Shown: positions 20,866-24,712 of the stretch, piece after piece
How positions within the stretch are numbered: position 1 is the first letter of the stretch
How the letters are laid out: each line of letters opens with the position of its first letter
NCBI GenBank assembly: GCA_016191165.1
Contig: JACPPF010000105.1
Location: 1-52,353 of the forward strand
Source of the DNA: Planctomycetota bacterium
GTDB taxonomy: Bacteria > Planctomycetota > Planctomycetia > Gemmatales > Gemmataceae
DNA length: 52,353 nt
Direction of reading: 5' to 3'
Notes under the pieces: generated by a model
What the model was told of the DNA's origin: nothing
Databases searched by the model: none
Seen by the model: the letters and a program-made list of their open reading frames with translations, nothing else
Translations under genes and position numbers: made by a program

Positions 20866-21930
20866 ATGAATCCCCTCATTCCCTTCCTTCAAGCCTCCGG
20901 GGTCGTGATCCTCGATGGCGGCCTCGCCACCGAGTTGGAGCGGCGCGGCGCCGATCTGCGCGACCCGCTCTGGTCGGCGAAACTCCTTCTCGAAAATCCC
21001 GATCTGATTCGACAAGTCCATCACGATTACCTCGCCGCCGGCGCCGAGGTGATCACCAGCGCGAGCTATCAAGCGACGATTCCCGGTTTGAACCAGCGCG
21101 GGCTGAATCACGCGCAGGCGGCGGATGTTCTACGGCTCAGCGTGCAGCTGGCGCAACAGGCGCGCGATGACTTCTTGCTCCGCTCAACCCCTGGGAGAGG
21201 GGCCGAGGGTGAGGGTGGGACGCGGCCGGATTCCGACTCCCATCTCCAGCCAGAGGTTGACGAGGTATCGGTTTCGGACACACCGCACCCTCACCCCCAA
21301 CCCCTCTCCCAGAGGGAGAGGGGAGCACGGCGCCCGGCGCTCGTCGCGGCGTCGATCGGGTGCTATGGCGCCTTCCTTCACGACGGCTCGGAATATCGCG
21401 GCGACTATGGCCTGTCGCTGCAACAACTCATCGACTGGCATCGCCCTCGCCTGGAAATCCTGGCCGCCAGCGGCGCTGACTTGCTCGCCTGCGAAACGAT
21501 TCCCTGTCTTCGTGAGGCCGAAGCGCTCGTCAAACTCCTGGCCGATTATCCATCCACACCCGCCTGGTTGAGTTTCAGCTGTCAAGACGAAGCGCGACTT
21601 TGTCATGGTGACCAATTTTCCGAGGCGGTGCAACTCGCCAATGACTCCGCCAACATCATCGCGGTTGGCGTGAATTGCACGGCGCCGCGTTTTATCGAGG
21701 GTCTCCTTGAATCGACCGCCGACGTTGCGAAGAAGCCGCTCCTTGTCTATCCAAACAGCGGGGAAACGTGGGATGCTTCACGGCAGTGCTGGCAGGGCAC
21801 GACCGGCGCGGTCGATTGGAGCGATGCGGTGAAACGTTGGCATCGCGCCGGCGCCCGGTTGCTCGGGGGATGTTGCCGCACGACGCCCGCTACGATTCGT
21901 ACCCTGGCGAACGTGCTGCGCCCCACGTGA
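20866..21930 (+). CDS. mmuM: homocysteine S-methyltransferase, with an in-frame repeat insertion
   Basis: A 354-residue cytoplasmic enzyme that transfers a methyl group from S-methylmethionine (or a related donor) to homocysteine to make methionine. The N-terminus [19 protein letters not shown] is typical, and the zinc cysteines are in VGVNCTAP and LGGCCRTTP. MmuM enzymes are usually near 310 residues. Here residues about 108-153 are a low-complexity stretch ([11 protein letters not shown] ... [13 protein letters not shown]) encoded entirely by the repeat element at 21188-21323, which falls between two helices and leaves both halves intact and in frame. Activity may be kept if the insert forms an external loop. 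The start is ATG 20866; a TTG lies one codon upstream. Confidence 0.88.
21188..21323. mobile_element. MITE-like inverted-repeat element inside mmuM
   Basis: Terminal arms CTGGGAGAGGGG-CC-GAGGGTGAGGGTG and the complementary CACCCTCACCCCC-AA-CCCCTCTCCCAG enclose about 70 bp of unrelated sequence. The right arm carries an extra CTCCC/GGGAG hairpin. An element of the same design and similar arms lies between genes at 49335-49460. It adds about 46 codons without a stop. Confidence 0.8.
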
Positions 21931-21956: not shown

Positions 21957-21985
21957 TTGACAAGAACCCGCCCCTTCGGTAGGAT
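21957..21985 (+). promoter_or_regulatory. strong sigma-70-like promoter of the JAB-E2-E1 operon
   Basis: A perfect TTGACA at 21957-21962 and TAGGAT at 21980-21985 with the ideal 17-base spacer. The start site would be near 21992, giving a leader of about 20 bases that contains the AAAGGA ribosome site of the JAB gene at 22013. This suggests constitutive transcription and an operon separate from mmuM. Confidence 0.65.
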
Positions 21986-22012
21986 GCGGAGACGGAAGAG
22001 AAAGGATGCCTT

Positions 22013-22945
22013 ATGATCGCCTGGCTGTGCCGATTGTTGTTCTGGTGGAAACGCCCCGCCGCGCTGGCGCCCCAGCCGGTCGCTTCACTGACGCGACTGG
22101 AGCGAATCATTCTGACCGACGGCGTTGCCCGCACGTTGTTCGAGGATTACGCCGAGCATCGCCGCTCGGCACGCGGGCACGAGGAGATCGGCTGGGTGCT
22201 TCTGGGCCTGCGGCAAGGCGATGAGGCCATCGCGCTGGCTGCTCTTCCCGCCGGCACAAGCCGCGACGCGGGCGCCGCCCATGTTCAATTCGACGCCGAG
22301 GCGCAAGGGCTGGCGAGCCGGATCGTGCGGCAACGGGACAAGCGTTTGCAGATTCTGGGCGTGGTGCATACTCACCCGGGCGATTTGCGCGAGCCAAGCG
22401 ATGGCGATTTGCACGGCGATAGCCGATGGGTCGGCGCCCTACGCGGCGGCGAGGGCGTTTTCGCGATCGGCACGGCGGACGCTCATTCGAATGAAGCCGC
22501 TGGCGCCCACGTGCAGCGTTTGGGCGACCTCTGTTTTTGCTGGTACGCGCTTGGGGTGGGCGAGCGCCGCTATCGCACCTTGCCCGTGCAGGTGACGCTT
22601 GGGCCCGACCTCGCCCAGCGCATTCGCACAGTCTGGGCCGTGATCGAGTCGAACACCAAAGCCCTGGAATACCTGTGCCGACTGTTCGCCAAGGTCGAGT
22701 TCGACATTCTCAACGATGACCCGGACAATCTCCTGGCCGTCAAAATTTCGCTCGCCGAGTCCGGTCAGCAAATTCGCCTCTTGCTAAGCACGGCGGAGGC
22801 GCGGTATTATTGGGAGAGGGATGGCGAGGTAATCGCCATCGACCCACGCGAGGAAGATTTGGTCCGCGCCGTTTTCTTGATTCTCGCGGAACTCGCCAAG
22901 GAAGACGCCCAGATAACTGAGACGCCCACGTTTGTCGAATCGTAA
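22013..22945 (+). CDS. JAMM/JAB-family metalloprotease (deubiquitinase-like)
   Basis: A 310-residue protein with the full JAMM zinc-protease signature: a glutamate in GHEEIGWVLLG (Glu57/58), then HTHP (His119, His121), seven residues, Ser129, two residues and Asp132. This E...HxH(x7)S(x2)D set is what active JAB isopeptidases need. Residues 1-20 are hydrophobic/aromatic and could touch the membrane. A C-terminal region (about 195-300) with an LLLSTAEARYYWERDG stretch is extra to the core and unassigned. It is followed closely by a small gene, an E2-like gene and an E1-like gene, so the likely job is to process or remove a conjugated modifier or substrate of that system. Confidence 0.88.
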   Translation: MIAWLCRLLFWWKRPAALAPQPVASLTRLERIILTDGVARTLFEDYAEHRRSARGHEEIGWVLLGLRQGDEAIALAALPAGTSRDAGAAHVQFDAEAQGLASRIVRQRDKRLQILGVVHTHPGDLREPSDGDLHGDSRWVGALRGGEGVFAIGTADAHSNEAAGAHVQRLGDLCFCWYALGVGERRYRTLPVQVTLGPDLAQRIRTVWAVIESNTKALEYLCRLFAKVEFDILNDDPDNLLAVKISLAESGQQIRLLLSTAEARYYWERDGEVIAIDPREEDLVRAVFLILAELAKEDAQITETPTFVES

Positions 22946-22970
22946 TCACCAGATCGAAGGGAGAAGACAG

Positions 22971-23153
22971 ATGGACTTTCGACCCCTGCAAACCGAAGAA
23001 CGCAAAAAGCTGATCGACGCCTTGCGCGGCAACGCCGAGGACAACCTCGCCATCCTGATGGATCGCCGCGACACGTCATTTTTGGGCGCCAGCGAAGAGG
23101 TGAGCGACGAGGAAGTTATCTCCGCGATCCAGTCGGTGCCGTGTCATTATTGA
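22971..23153 (+). CDS. 60-residue orphan protein of the JAB-E2-E1 operon
   Basis: A 60-residue acidic protein (starts MDFRPLQTEERKKLID, ends SAIQSVPCHY) with a GAAGGGAGAAG ribosome site, 25 bases after the JAB gene. I do not recognise it. Predicted by eye: two amphipathic helices (about 8-32 and 43-55) joined by a loop, with one cysteine at 58. It lacks a Gly-Gly end and does not look like a beta-grasp ubiquitin fold. Its position between the protease and the E2 makes it the best candidate for the modifier, the substrate or a precursor peptide of the operon. A role as a small partner of the E2 or E1 is the alternative. Confidence 0.75.
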   Translation: MDFRPLQTEERKKLIDALRGNAEDNLAILMDRRDTSFLGASEEVSDEEVISAIQSVPCHY

Positions 23154-23165
23154 GTATTTCTCCAT

Positions 23166-23180
23166 TCTCCCCTGGGGAGA
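23166..23180. repeat. small palindrome upstream of the E2 gene
   Basis: TCTCCCC-T-GGGGAGA lies directly upstream of the GAGGAAG ribosome site for the E2-like gene. It resembles half of the GGGAGAGG-type element seen in mmuM and at 49335. A hairpin here could affect translation of the E2 relative to the genes before it. Confidence 0.55.
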
Positions 23181-23193
23181 GGCGAGGAAGCGT

Positions 23194-23619
23194 ATGCCCC
23201 TTCTCGACACCGAAGCCGGCAAACGGCGGTTGCTCACCGTCGAGATCCCGGTTCTGGAACGCTACAACCAGGATCGCGCGGACGATTTCAAGATCAAGGT
23301 CGTCAAGCACGCCGGAACGCTGCTTTTGCGCTATCGCCTCAAGCCAATGCACAACGTGTACGAACTCGAAACGCGCCTGCCGGCGGACTACCCGACGATC
23401 CCGCCGGAAACGCGCGTGATCACGTTGCTGGATTTCTGCCCCCACTTGCTCGATGGCCAGGTCCTTTGCATGTGGAAGCAAGGGAGCACGCGTGAAACGA
23501 GCCGATGGGACCCCGCGAAGTTCACCTGCGTGTTCGCTGTGCAGGCCGCCTGGCGCTGGCTGGCGTGTTACGAGGTGTGGCGCGACACGGGCGATTGGCC
23601 GCTGCCCGACGCCAAATGA
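23194..23619 (+). CDS. E2-like ubiquitin-conjugating (UBC-fold) protein
   Basis: A 141-residue protein with the hallmarks of bacterial E2-like proteins: a beta-meander ending in YELETRLPADYPTIPPETR, a His in CPHLLDGQ (His84), the candidate catalytic cysteine in GQVLCMW (Cys92), a downstream Trp (SRWDPA) and a helical C-terminus AAWRWLACYEVWRDTGDWP. The LPxxYPxxPP proline stretch followed by H...G..LC is the E2 arrangement. It would accept an activated protein from the E1 as a thioester and pass it on. Predicted cytoplasmic. It begins 40 bases after the 60-residue gene, and 284 bases of repeats separate it from the E1 gene. Confidence 0.85.
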   Translation: MPLLDTEAGKRRLLTVEIPVLERYNQDRADDFKIKVVKHAGTLLLRYRLKPMHNVYELETRLPADYPTIPPETRVITLLDFCPHLLDGQVLCMWKQGSTRETSRWDPAKFTCVFAVQAAWRWLACYEVWRDTGDWPLPDAK

Positions 23620-23660
23620 TTTTTGGCCACATTACCGCGCGTCGATGAGTCTTTGACCAA

Positions 23661-23720
23661 CCCACAAGCGCAAGCTGGGGGGCTTTAGGGGCGGGCCAAA
23701 CCCCCACGCTTGCGCGTGGG
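23661..23720. repeat. REP-like palindrome in the E2-E1 gap
   Basis: CCCACAAGCGCAAGCTGGGGG and CCCCCACGCTTGCGCGTGGG are near-complementary arms around a G-rich loop of about 20 bases. It could act as a partial terminator inside the operon. Confidence 0.65.
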
Positions 23721-23754
23721 CCTGGCGTTCCTCCGCTTGACGAATGGTATTGCG

Positions 23755-23850
23755 TTTGGAGTGCCAGGAACAATGAATGTAGGTCAGGCTTTCCAGCCTG
23801 ACGGTCAGGCTTTCCAGCCTGACCTACTTCATTTCTTTGGACCGTCTTGG
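23755..23850. mobile_element. MITE-like palindromic element, copy 2
   Basis: The core GTAGGTCAGGCTTTCCAGCC...CAGCCTGACCTAC (23779-23827) and the flanks GGAGTGCC-AACAATGAA and TTCATTTCTTTGGAC match the element at 6884-6977. It lies in the gap between the E2 and E1 genes. Confidence 0.75.
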
Positions 23851-23902
23851 CAACGCGGCTTGCTCCGCGCGGGCCAAGGCCTGCGGCTAAAATAAAGGGG
23901 AA

Positions 23903-24712
23903 GTGCCATTGTCCCACCTCTTTCAGGTTGGCGCCGGCTCCGGCGGCATGACGGTGCTGGATGTCGTTTGCCGCGATCCTCGTATCTCGCGCGTCACGCT
24001 CATCGAACCGGATGAGTACAAACCGCACAATGTTGTGAGGCATCTTTTTCCGCCGTCCGCGGTCGGTTCCAAGAAGTCCAACCTTGCGGCCAAGTGGCTG
24101 GAGGAACGCCGCCCGGATTTGAAACTGCAACTTCTCCATTGTAGCTTGATGAGCCCGTTGCACGCGGCGAAGATCGAAGCCGCGGCCCAGGCGTGCGACC
24201 TCGGGGTTTGCGCCGCGGACAACGAGGCGGCGAAGTTTCATTTCGATTTGCTCATGCGTCGTTTTCTCAAGCCGTGGACGCTCGGCGAGGTGCTCGCGGG
24301 GGGCATTGGCGGGTTTGTTCACTGGTTCGCGCCGGGTGGCCCGTGTTATGGGTGCGTGGCCAGCTTCCTGCGCCGGACGGTGCAGGCCGACACCAGCAAA
24401 CCGCCCGATTACGCCGCGCCGGGCGGCCCGGCTCCGGAGACGACGATTCCCGCGAGCCGGGCGTCCATCGAGGTCATCGCGTCGCTTCACGCCCAGATCA
24501 CGCTGCAACTCCTGACGCACGGCGCCGGCTACGACCCGGGATTCACGAGCTTGTTGTTCACACTGGAAAAAGTCCCCGGCATCTTCGACGAGGCGTTCCG
24601 GGCCCACCGCTTTCGGATCCCCCGAGCGCCCGATTGCCTGATCTGCAAGGATTGTGGAGCGCCAGCCGATCTGGATGACGCACTCAAGAACGCGCTGAAG
24701 CGACTACAATAG
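23903..24712 (+). CDS. E1-like ThiF-family adenylating enzyme
   Basis: A 269-residue E1/ThiF/MoeB-like protein. The ATP-binding loop VGAGSGG (10-15) opens the Rossmann fold, followed by the acidic LIEPDEY, the arginine-finger stretch HNVVRHLF (Asn43, Arg46), GSKKSN (Lys57/58) and CAADNEAAK (Asp106), so the adenylation site is complete. Two CxxC pairs (CYGC at 148-151, CLICKDC at 245-251) probably bind zinc. No cysteine is found between 152 and 244, the usual region of the E1 thioester cysteine. The N-terminus begins right at the first strand, without the helical arm common in E1s. The start is GTG 23903; TTG 23909 has better spacing from the AAAGGGG ribosome site. Confidence 0.83.
   Translation: MPLSHLFQVGAGSGGMTVLDVVCRDPRISRVTLIEPDEYKPHNVVRHLFPPSAVGSKKSNLAAKWLEERRPDLKLQLLHCSLMSPLHAAKIEAAAQACDLGVCAADNEAAKFHFDLLMRRFLKPWTLGEVLAGGIGGFVHWFAPGGPCYGCVASFLRRTVQADTSKPPDYAAPGGPAPETTIPASRASIEVIASLHAQITLQLLTHGAGYDPGFTSLLFTLEKVPGIFDEAFRAHRFRIPRAPDCLICKDCGAPADLDDALKNALKRLQ

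Follow-up and report, generated by a model that had tools for sequence, protein, structure and literature searches.

Is a small protein without the ubiquitin fold the tag in a bacterial ubiquitin-type conjugation system? The question is raised by a contig from a member of the order Gemmatales (Planctomycetota), JACPPF010000105.1, of which the whole 52,353-nucleotide stretch analysed here is referred to as the window. Four genes lie in the same direction (+) within it and encode a JAMM isopeptidase-like protein, the 60-residue product of a small open reading frame (ORF60), an E2-like (conjugating-type) protein and an E1-like (activating-type) protein. The reading towards which we lean is that a lineage-specific, vertically inherited tagging system of Gemmatales activates ORF60 at its C-terminus and conjugates it; this system would probably be cellular rather than anti-phage, and its JAMM protein would remove ORF60. 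A broader proposal, that ORF60 founds a class of non-beta-grasp modifiers (minimal E1 without a transfer cysteine, stand-alone E2, attachment through a C-terminal Tyr, order-wide household use), is put forward tentatively, as possible and somewhat doubtful. Bacterial E1–E2–JAB sets described to date are sporadic, and those that have been characterised act in phage defence, together with either a ubiquitin-like protein or a cyclase; in Gemmatales, the E1–E2–JAMM set is near-core, and its tag slot is held by a small protein whose model is unlike ubiquitin.

The four genes are located as follows:

22013..22945, + strand: JAMM/Prok-JAB isopeptidase-like protein, 310 residues (Pfam), with residues ~155–310 lacking a family assignment
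22971..23153, + strand: ORF60, 60 residues, the proposed modifier, with C-terminal tail SVPCHY (ATG at 22971, stop at 23151–23153)
23194..23619, + strand: E2-like protein, 141 residues (PADLOC E2 models), predicted catalytic Cys92 in CPHLLDGQVLCMW
23909..24712, + strand: E1-like ThiF-fold adenylyltransferase, 267 residues from a TTG, with a GTG at 23903 as alternative start

When 102 Gemmatales genomes were searched for the four genes, ORF60, E2 and E1 were found in an identical 73 genomes, and the remaining 29 have none of these three; the system is present in about three quarters of this sample. Each gene is nearly always present in one copy, the doubled E1 counts being split matches plus one weak second match in G032. 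JAMM is present in 52/73 carriers and 0/29 non-carriers, and was never seen in these genomes without the other three genes. At each locus inspected, ORF60 is the gene immediately 5' of E2 (138 locus copies; gap 6–438 bases, median 106), and E2 and E1 are separate genes in all loci, with no E2–E1 fusion (Cap2) of the kind known from the cyclic-oligonucleotide-based antiphage signalling system (CBASS). Several genomes (G055, G029, G016 and G015) encode E1 or JAMM elsewhere on the chromosome, and the genes still co-occur; in G055, E1 is megabases from E2 (4.99 versus 9.38 Mb) and ORF60 still adjoins E2. An initial reading made from the letters of the window (the sequence-only reading) had proposed a distinct subtype of E1–E2–JAMM set with a 60-residue orphan in the modifier slot, to be doubted should the genes fail to co-occur in homologous operons. 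The survey bears this proposal out more strongly than it was made (73/73/73 of 102 genomes), with a constant small gene replacing the ubiquitin-like gene.

Named carriers among the best matches (61 loci) comprise Limnoglobus roseus, Zavarzinella formosa, Gemmata and many Gemmataceae metagenome-assembled genomes, a few such assemblies being titled otherwise; the first three are cultured, L. roseus and Z. formosa being JAMM-bearing and Gemmata JAMM-less. Among ~390 genomes sampled across the phylum, ORF60 was found in none besides the window's own. Genera hold together in a tree built from E2 and ORF60. Two members of genus g16 listed as 100% complete (G476 and G480) lack ORF60, E2, E1 and JAMM, and 17 congeners retain ORF60, E2 and E1, which indicates loss of the whole set inside the genus; since these complete genomes lack it, the set is neither universal in the order nor essential to it. 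Around the loci, no additional conserved neighbour (E3, effector or protease) was found: only E2, E1, JAMM and ORF60 are constant near E2, and a class V aminotransferase-like gene occurs in one sub-clade only. Taken from gene content and trees, the set appears vertically inherited and household-like, unlike scattered phage defence.

This pattern bears on an immune function of Bil, Bub or CBASS type, the Bil-like form of which the sequence-only reading had suggested. The E2 and E1 do resemble PADLOC E2 and E1–E2 defence models, plasmid relatives of the E2 include nucleotidyltransferase–E2–SAVED loci, and a related Mesorhizobium plasmid locus carries patatin-like and MBL-fold genes. Against these stand the single copy in 73/102 genomes of one order with genera together in the tree, the joint retention of three genes even where they are unlinked, the lack of a constant effector gene nearby, and the absence of PADLOC matches among the nine neighbouring window proteins, which agrees with the earlier statement that no known defence gene adjoins the set. 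The window's E2 was likewise found in none of 50,697 phage and 72,556 plasmid records. Because the set is vertical and single-copy, without defence neighbours and without phage or plasmid copies, the immune role is unsupported and we consider it improbable; ORF60 probably has a cellular role. Separately, one IMG/VR contig (L160, IMGVR_UViG_3300047160_030190) carries all four genes at 56–72% identity; its viral label is probably wrong and the contig bacterial.

Turning to ORF60 itself, the window protein has no match in Pfam, NCBIfam or PADLOC, and its family of 55 members yields no Pfam match above chance. It is under purifying selection (non-synonymous divergence, dN, 0.05–0.23; synonymous divergence, dS, 0.55–1.1), and it is no spurious reading frame, given the exact length, the evidence from codons and the 73/73 co-occurrence. 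Across 36 Gemmatales sequences, 15/60 columns are invariant and these lie mostly at both ends (M1 D2 F3 R4 and S55 V56 P57 H59 Y60), the C-terminal motif SVP[CVST]HY almost always forming the final residues. The protein ends exactly at Y60 in 58/68 genomes checked, the remainder carrying 1–6 residues past HY (AVVSGQ, KL, AGI, A, GR, AGV or AG), and the named locus L117, beyond these 68, has an extra G. None of the 68 ends in Gly-Gly; the window protein ends CHY, in keeping with the sequence-only observation that the operon encodes no Gly-Gly modifier. Invariant ends together with an exact stop at Y60 in most genomes are what one would expect if a protein is activated at its C-terminus. An AlphaFold2 model built from 55 sequences (predicted local distance difference test, pLDDT, 84; predicted template modelling score, pTM, 0.56) comprises a helix (8–24), two strands (27–30 and 37–41), a second helix (46–54) and an extended C-terminal tail. 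As modelled, this alpha–beta–beta–alpha order is not that of a beta-grasp. Foldseek against the PDB returned nothing with E <0.7 and VIA-align a best Z of 3.3, results that do not by themselves establish a new fold.

Are the enzymes around ORF60 equipped for conjugation? The sequence-only reading placed the four genes correctly and described a complete JAMM site; the JAMM protein matches Prok-JAB (Pfam, E=7.5e-10), with E57/E58, H119-x-H121 and D132 invariant in 47/47 relatives and S129 in 46/47, and is predicted to be catalytically complete. The E1-like protein matches ThiF (PF00899, E=4.5e-13). Its adenylation residues G8, G10, D35, N41, R44, K56 and D104 are invariant in 66 relatives, as are the CxxC pairs 146/149 and 243/246 except in one C-terminally short row, and these pairs presumably correspond to a zinc site like that of MoeB/ThiF. 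The complete adenylation site and two CxxC pairs claimed previously are therefore present, with the former Asn43/Arg46 renumbered N41/R44 because the start was assigned by homology to TTG 23909. The relatives begin M[AS]H[LV]xQVGAGSGG, and the first strand of the nucleotide fold comes right at the N-terminus. Truncation, raised by a ThiF profile that starts at 22, was ruled out on the grounds that all relatives start M[AS]HxxQVGAGSGG.

Outside the CxxC pairs, the only cysteine invariant among the 66 relatives is Cys101, three residues before the adenylation Asp, and no separate catalytic cysteine is invariant beyond it. Dedicated E1 cysteines are known elsewhere, namely UBA5 Cys250, BilD Cys417 and that of Cap2 (PMC12355090, PMC11354881, PMC11153139). 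By PDB profile, the closest solved relatives of the E1 are MccB (best, 4.6e-8) and UBA5. The MccB match, along with the lack of an extra invariant cysteine, could be taken to mean that E1 and ORF60 form a peptide-modification or sulfur-carrier pair (MccB- or ThiF-like, via a C-terminal adenylate, thiocarboxylate or phosphoramidate) for which the E2 was recruited as transferase; the substrate of MccB is a peptide with a C-terminal residue other than Gly. The co-inherited E2 with its invariant Cys92 and the catalytically complete JAMM fit this poorly, no cysteine desulfurase or rhodanese is constant near the loci (the class V aminotransferase-like gene being confined to its sub-clade), and we regard such a pair as very improbable.

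The E2-like protein of the window falls below threshold in Pfam (Prok-E2_B 0.066, UQ_con 0.1) and matches the PADLOC E2 model at 1.2e-9; PADLOC E2 models match 49/49 aligned relatives (best 7e-12). Cys92 and the upstream Pro83-His84 motif are invariant in these 49, which upholds the candidate active cysteine of the sequence-only reading. No conserved His follows Cys92 in the relatives, and the Cys-Glu-His-His motif of BilB was not encountered. The closest solved relative by PDB profile is UFC1 (E=0.08, weak). An AlphaFold2 model (pLDDT 59, poor around the active site) gave weak matches, with the bacterial CdnG-E2 in the first Foldseek row (E=0.37) and UFC1 in later rows, and Ube2w in the first VIA-align row (weak). 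The evidence points weakly to the UBC family; a place outside that fold, which the sequence-only reading had counted against itself, is not what the top matches (UFC1, CdnG-E2, Ube2w) indicate, all of them being weak.

Given intact catalytic residues and strict co-inheritance, both observed, we infer conjugation itself along the following lines. The E1 would adenylate the C-terminal carboxylate of ORF60 (His-Tyr-COOH, Tyr60), and ORF60 would be loaded onto Cys92 of the E2. Since the CxxC pairs and Cys101 are the only invariant cysteines of the E1, transfer may proceed straight from the acyl-adenylate. The E2 would then join ORF60 to target proteins and the JAMM protein would strip it from them; JAMM may also trim the ORF60 precursor where 1–6 residues follow HY. 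By analogy, the closest tested precedent for a non-ubiquitin substrate activated at its C-terminus is CBASS Cap2, which conjugates a CD-NTase, a non-beta-grasp protein, via its C-terminus (PMC12355090), with release by Cap3 (PMC11153139, PMC12355090); in B. cereus, the CD-NTase is conjugated by Cap2 at a C-terminal Ala (PMC11153139).

Several points weigh against this reading. The conjugation of ORF60 is a prediction from sequence. The last residue of ORF60 is Tyr; in most known E1 substrates it is Gly, and in CBASS Ala. Twenty-one genomes keep ORF60, E2 and E1 without JAMM, which is absent from the whole Gemmata-like genus g16 and from g8, G015, G039 and G492, corresponding to about three losses on the ORF60 and E2 tree; in the Gemmata-like clade, the modification would have lost its local JAMM eraser. 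Tails past HY occur only in JAMM-bearing genomes, and this was not accepted as a demonstration of trimming: the JAMM-less clades are nested inside a larger tail-free clade, so that clade explains the absence of tails and the comparison is no test. The variable tails (A, G, AG, AGV, AGI, GR, KL and AVVSGQ) also fit an internal SVPxHY binding motif.

This last point belongs to the main rival explanation. In it, ORF60 would serve E2 or E1 as an obligate partner (an adaptor, or an E1–E2 bridge comparable to the C-terminal segment through which UBA5 recruits UFC1), and the actual tag would be a beta-grasp protein with a C-terminal Gly whose gene lies elsewhere, such as a ThiS/MoaD paralogue. Besides the variable tails, ORF60 is most tightly tied to E2, the closest PDB profiles are UBA5/MccB for the E1 and UFC1 for the E2, and the E1 lacks the C-terminal extension by which UBA5 binds UFC1 (PMC12355090). 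An invariant motif at the extreme C-terminus would be odd for an adaptor, however, and in sister loci the same slot is taken by small proteins that carry Gly-Gly at, or close to, their C-terminal end; no second conserved gene was found around the loci, although the genomes as a whole were not searched for other ubiquitin-like proteins. We rate a partner role for ORF60 as rather unlikely and retain the tagging reading.

The sister loci were reached through distant E2s taken from a phylum scan, each with a small gene directly 5'. G176 has the order JAMM–65 residues–E2–E1, its small protein ends HYAGR, and profile comparison finds it homologous to ORF60 (0/1000 shuffles score as high; hhalign E=1.8e-4). 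G226 encodes a 74-residue protein ending RHGG, followed by E2 and E1. The planctomycete G158 (locus L053) encodes a 60-residue protein ending LGGEYYIEG, then E2, a Phd/E2-like protein, E1 and JAB; a plasmid of Mesorhizobium sp. AR10 (L161:3819–8378, NZ_CP080523.1) has a 57-residue protein ending LGGEY, then E2, Phd/E2-like, E1, JAB, an MBL-fold protein and a patatin-like phospholipase. The G158 and Mesorhizobium small proteins are 52% identical, and their E1 and E2 are clearly related to the window families (hhalign 99% for E1, 95% for E2). No profile homology of ORF60 to the Mesorhizobium, G158 or G226 small proteins was detected; their link to it is one of position, size and predicted make-up, a further point that counts against the tagging reading. 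Judged by order and size, there may be a wider subtype of small gene–E2–E1, usually accompanied by JAMM, whose modifier slot is held by the small gene. Beyond the order, the product of this gene can retain Gly-Gly, and the gene may belong to mobile and perhaps defensive contexts; within Gemmatales it would have turned into a resident function.

The Mesorhizobium plasmid locus has an IS30 transposase upstream and its genes are annotated mostly as hypothetical; it is possibly a mobile defence version of the gene set. In two other planctomycetes (L054:6304–8850, +; L055:2115–4643, –), genes for an E2-like protein and a JAB–ThiF fusion lie directly behind cas2. An NYN-domain nuclease gene is near the L055 cas2 locus, with a similar gene in L054, and L055 also has a RAMP-superfamily gene (Pfam). 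By their sequences, these are predicted ubiquitin-type enzymes within CRISPR-Cas loci.

How the window genes are transcribed involves two further features:

21957..21985, + strand: promoter TTGACA-17-TAGGAT, 10/12 consensus positions, 5' of the JAMM gene
23779..23827, no strand assigned: palindromic repeat between E2 and E1, two copies of a 21-mer, terminator-like on the + strand

The promoter is kept as TTGACA...TATGAT in 3/6 aligned congeners (L072, L073 and L074) and not in L076, L077 or L078. E2 and E1 are 289 bases apart, and this interval spans a palindrome at 23803–23824 that scored as terminator-like. Owing to this spacer and the palindromic repeat, the E1 may have a separate transcript in the window; a shared promoter is sure for JAMM–ORF60–E2 only. 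The sequence-only reading had all four genes in one direction behind one strong promoter, of which the direction holds and the single promoter does not extend securely to E1. The repeat unit GGTCAGGCTTTCCAGCCTGAC occurs as two tandem copies at 23779–23827, and most of it recurs a third time, in reverse orientation, from 6932; it is a dispersed palindromic repeat and may act as a terminator. The adjoining upstream homocysteine S-methyltransferase gene contains an in-frame insert of ~42 codons (21199–21325) that includes a palindromic CCCCTCTCCCAGAGGGAGAGGGG repeat and is missing from three orthologues.

Gemmatales planctomycetes are known for complex membranes. If ORF60 is conjugated, ubiquitin-type chemistry would work with a tag that lacks the beta-grasp fold and has a C-terminal Tyr, and the targets of ORF60 would reveal the part of protein tagging in normal bacterial life; given cultured carriers, bacterial ubiquitin-type tagging outside immunity becomes a directly testable question here. 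Related operons have been described in Planctomycetes as sporadic and often missing in close relatives (PMC4197634), and a 2013 report (Arcas et al., going by the title cited in PMC8567305) dealt with planctomycete E2s. E1–E2–JAB operons are already known; our literature search found no description of ORF60 or of the order-wide Gemmatales system, and an earlier mention of this E2 is possible (Arcas et al. 2013).

Among comparable systems, the Mesorhizobium AR10 (L161) and G158 (L053) loci share the order small gene–E2–E1–JAMM and related E1 and E2 with the Gemmatales set; unlike in that set, E2 and E1 are separated there by a second Phd/E2-like gene, and the small protein has an LGGEY end. Pup and UBact are, like ORF60, small (~60 residues) modifiers without the beta-grasp fold, but use a different enzyme (the PafA ligase) and a C-terminal Gly-Gly-Gln/Glu; to our knowledge they involve no E1, E2 or JAMM. 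The predicted operons 6a–6e combine JAB, E1-like and E2-like genes, as does the Gemmatales set, and are sporadic, mostly with E1 fused to JAB or E2, with 6d and 6e encoding beta-grasp ubiquitin-like proteins (Iyer et al. 2006, PMC1779556); neither Planctomycetes nor a 60-residue gene for a protein other than a ubiquitin-like one was found in the text of PMC1779556. The UFM1 system (UBA5, UFC1) has in common a minimal single-domain E1 and a non-canonical E2, and the best profile matches include UBA5 and UFC1; in the Gemmatales set, by contrast, the E1 carries neither a C-terminal extension of UBA5 type nor a separate invariant cysteine, and we found no beta-grasp modifier, no genome-wide search having been made. 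BilABCD likewise has four genes (small partner, E2, JAB and E1). BilA has two ubiquitin-like domains and a C-terminal Gly, BilD has inactive and active adenylation domains plus a Cys domain, and BilB has a CEHH motif (PMC11354881); the Gemmatales set has none of these hallmarks, its E1 being 267 residues long with one ThiF domain. CBASS type II Cap2/Cap3 and short type II (cyclase–E2–effector) share the PADLOC E2 match (49/49) and the E1–E2–JAB logic, and in CBASS, as proposed for ORF60, a non-beta-grasp protein is conjugated by its C-terminus (PMC12355090, PMC11153139). Unlike CBASS type II, the Gemmatales set is without cyclase or effector, keeps E1 and E2 separate, has a 60-residue partner, and is vertical and order-wide rather than mobile.

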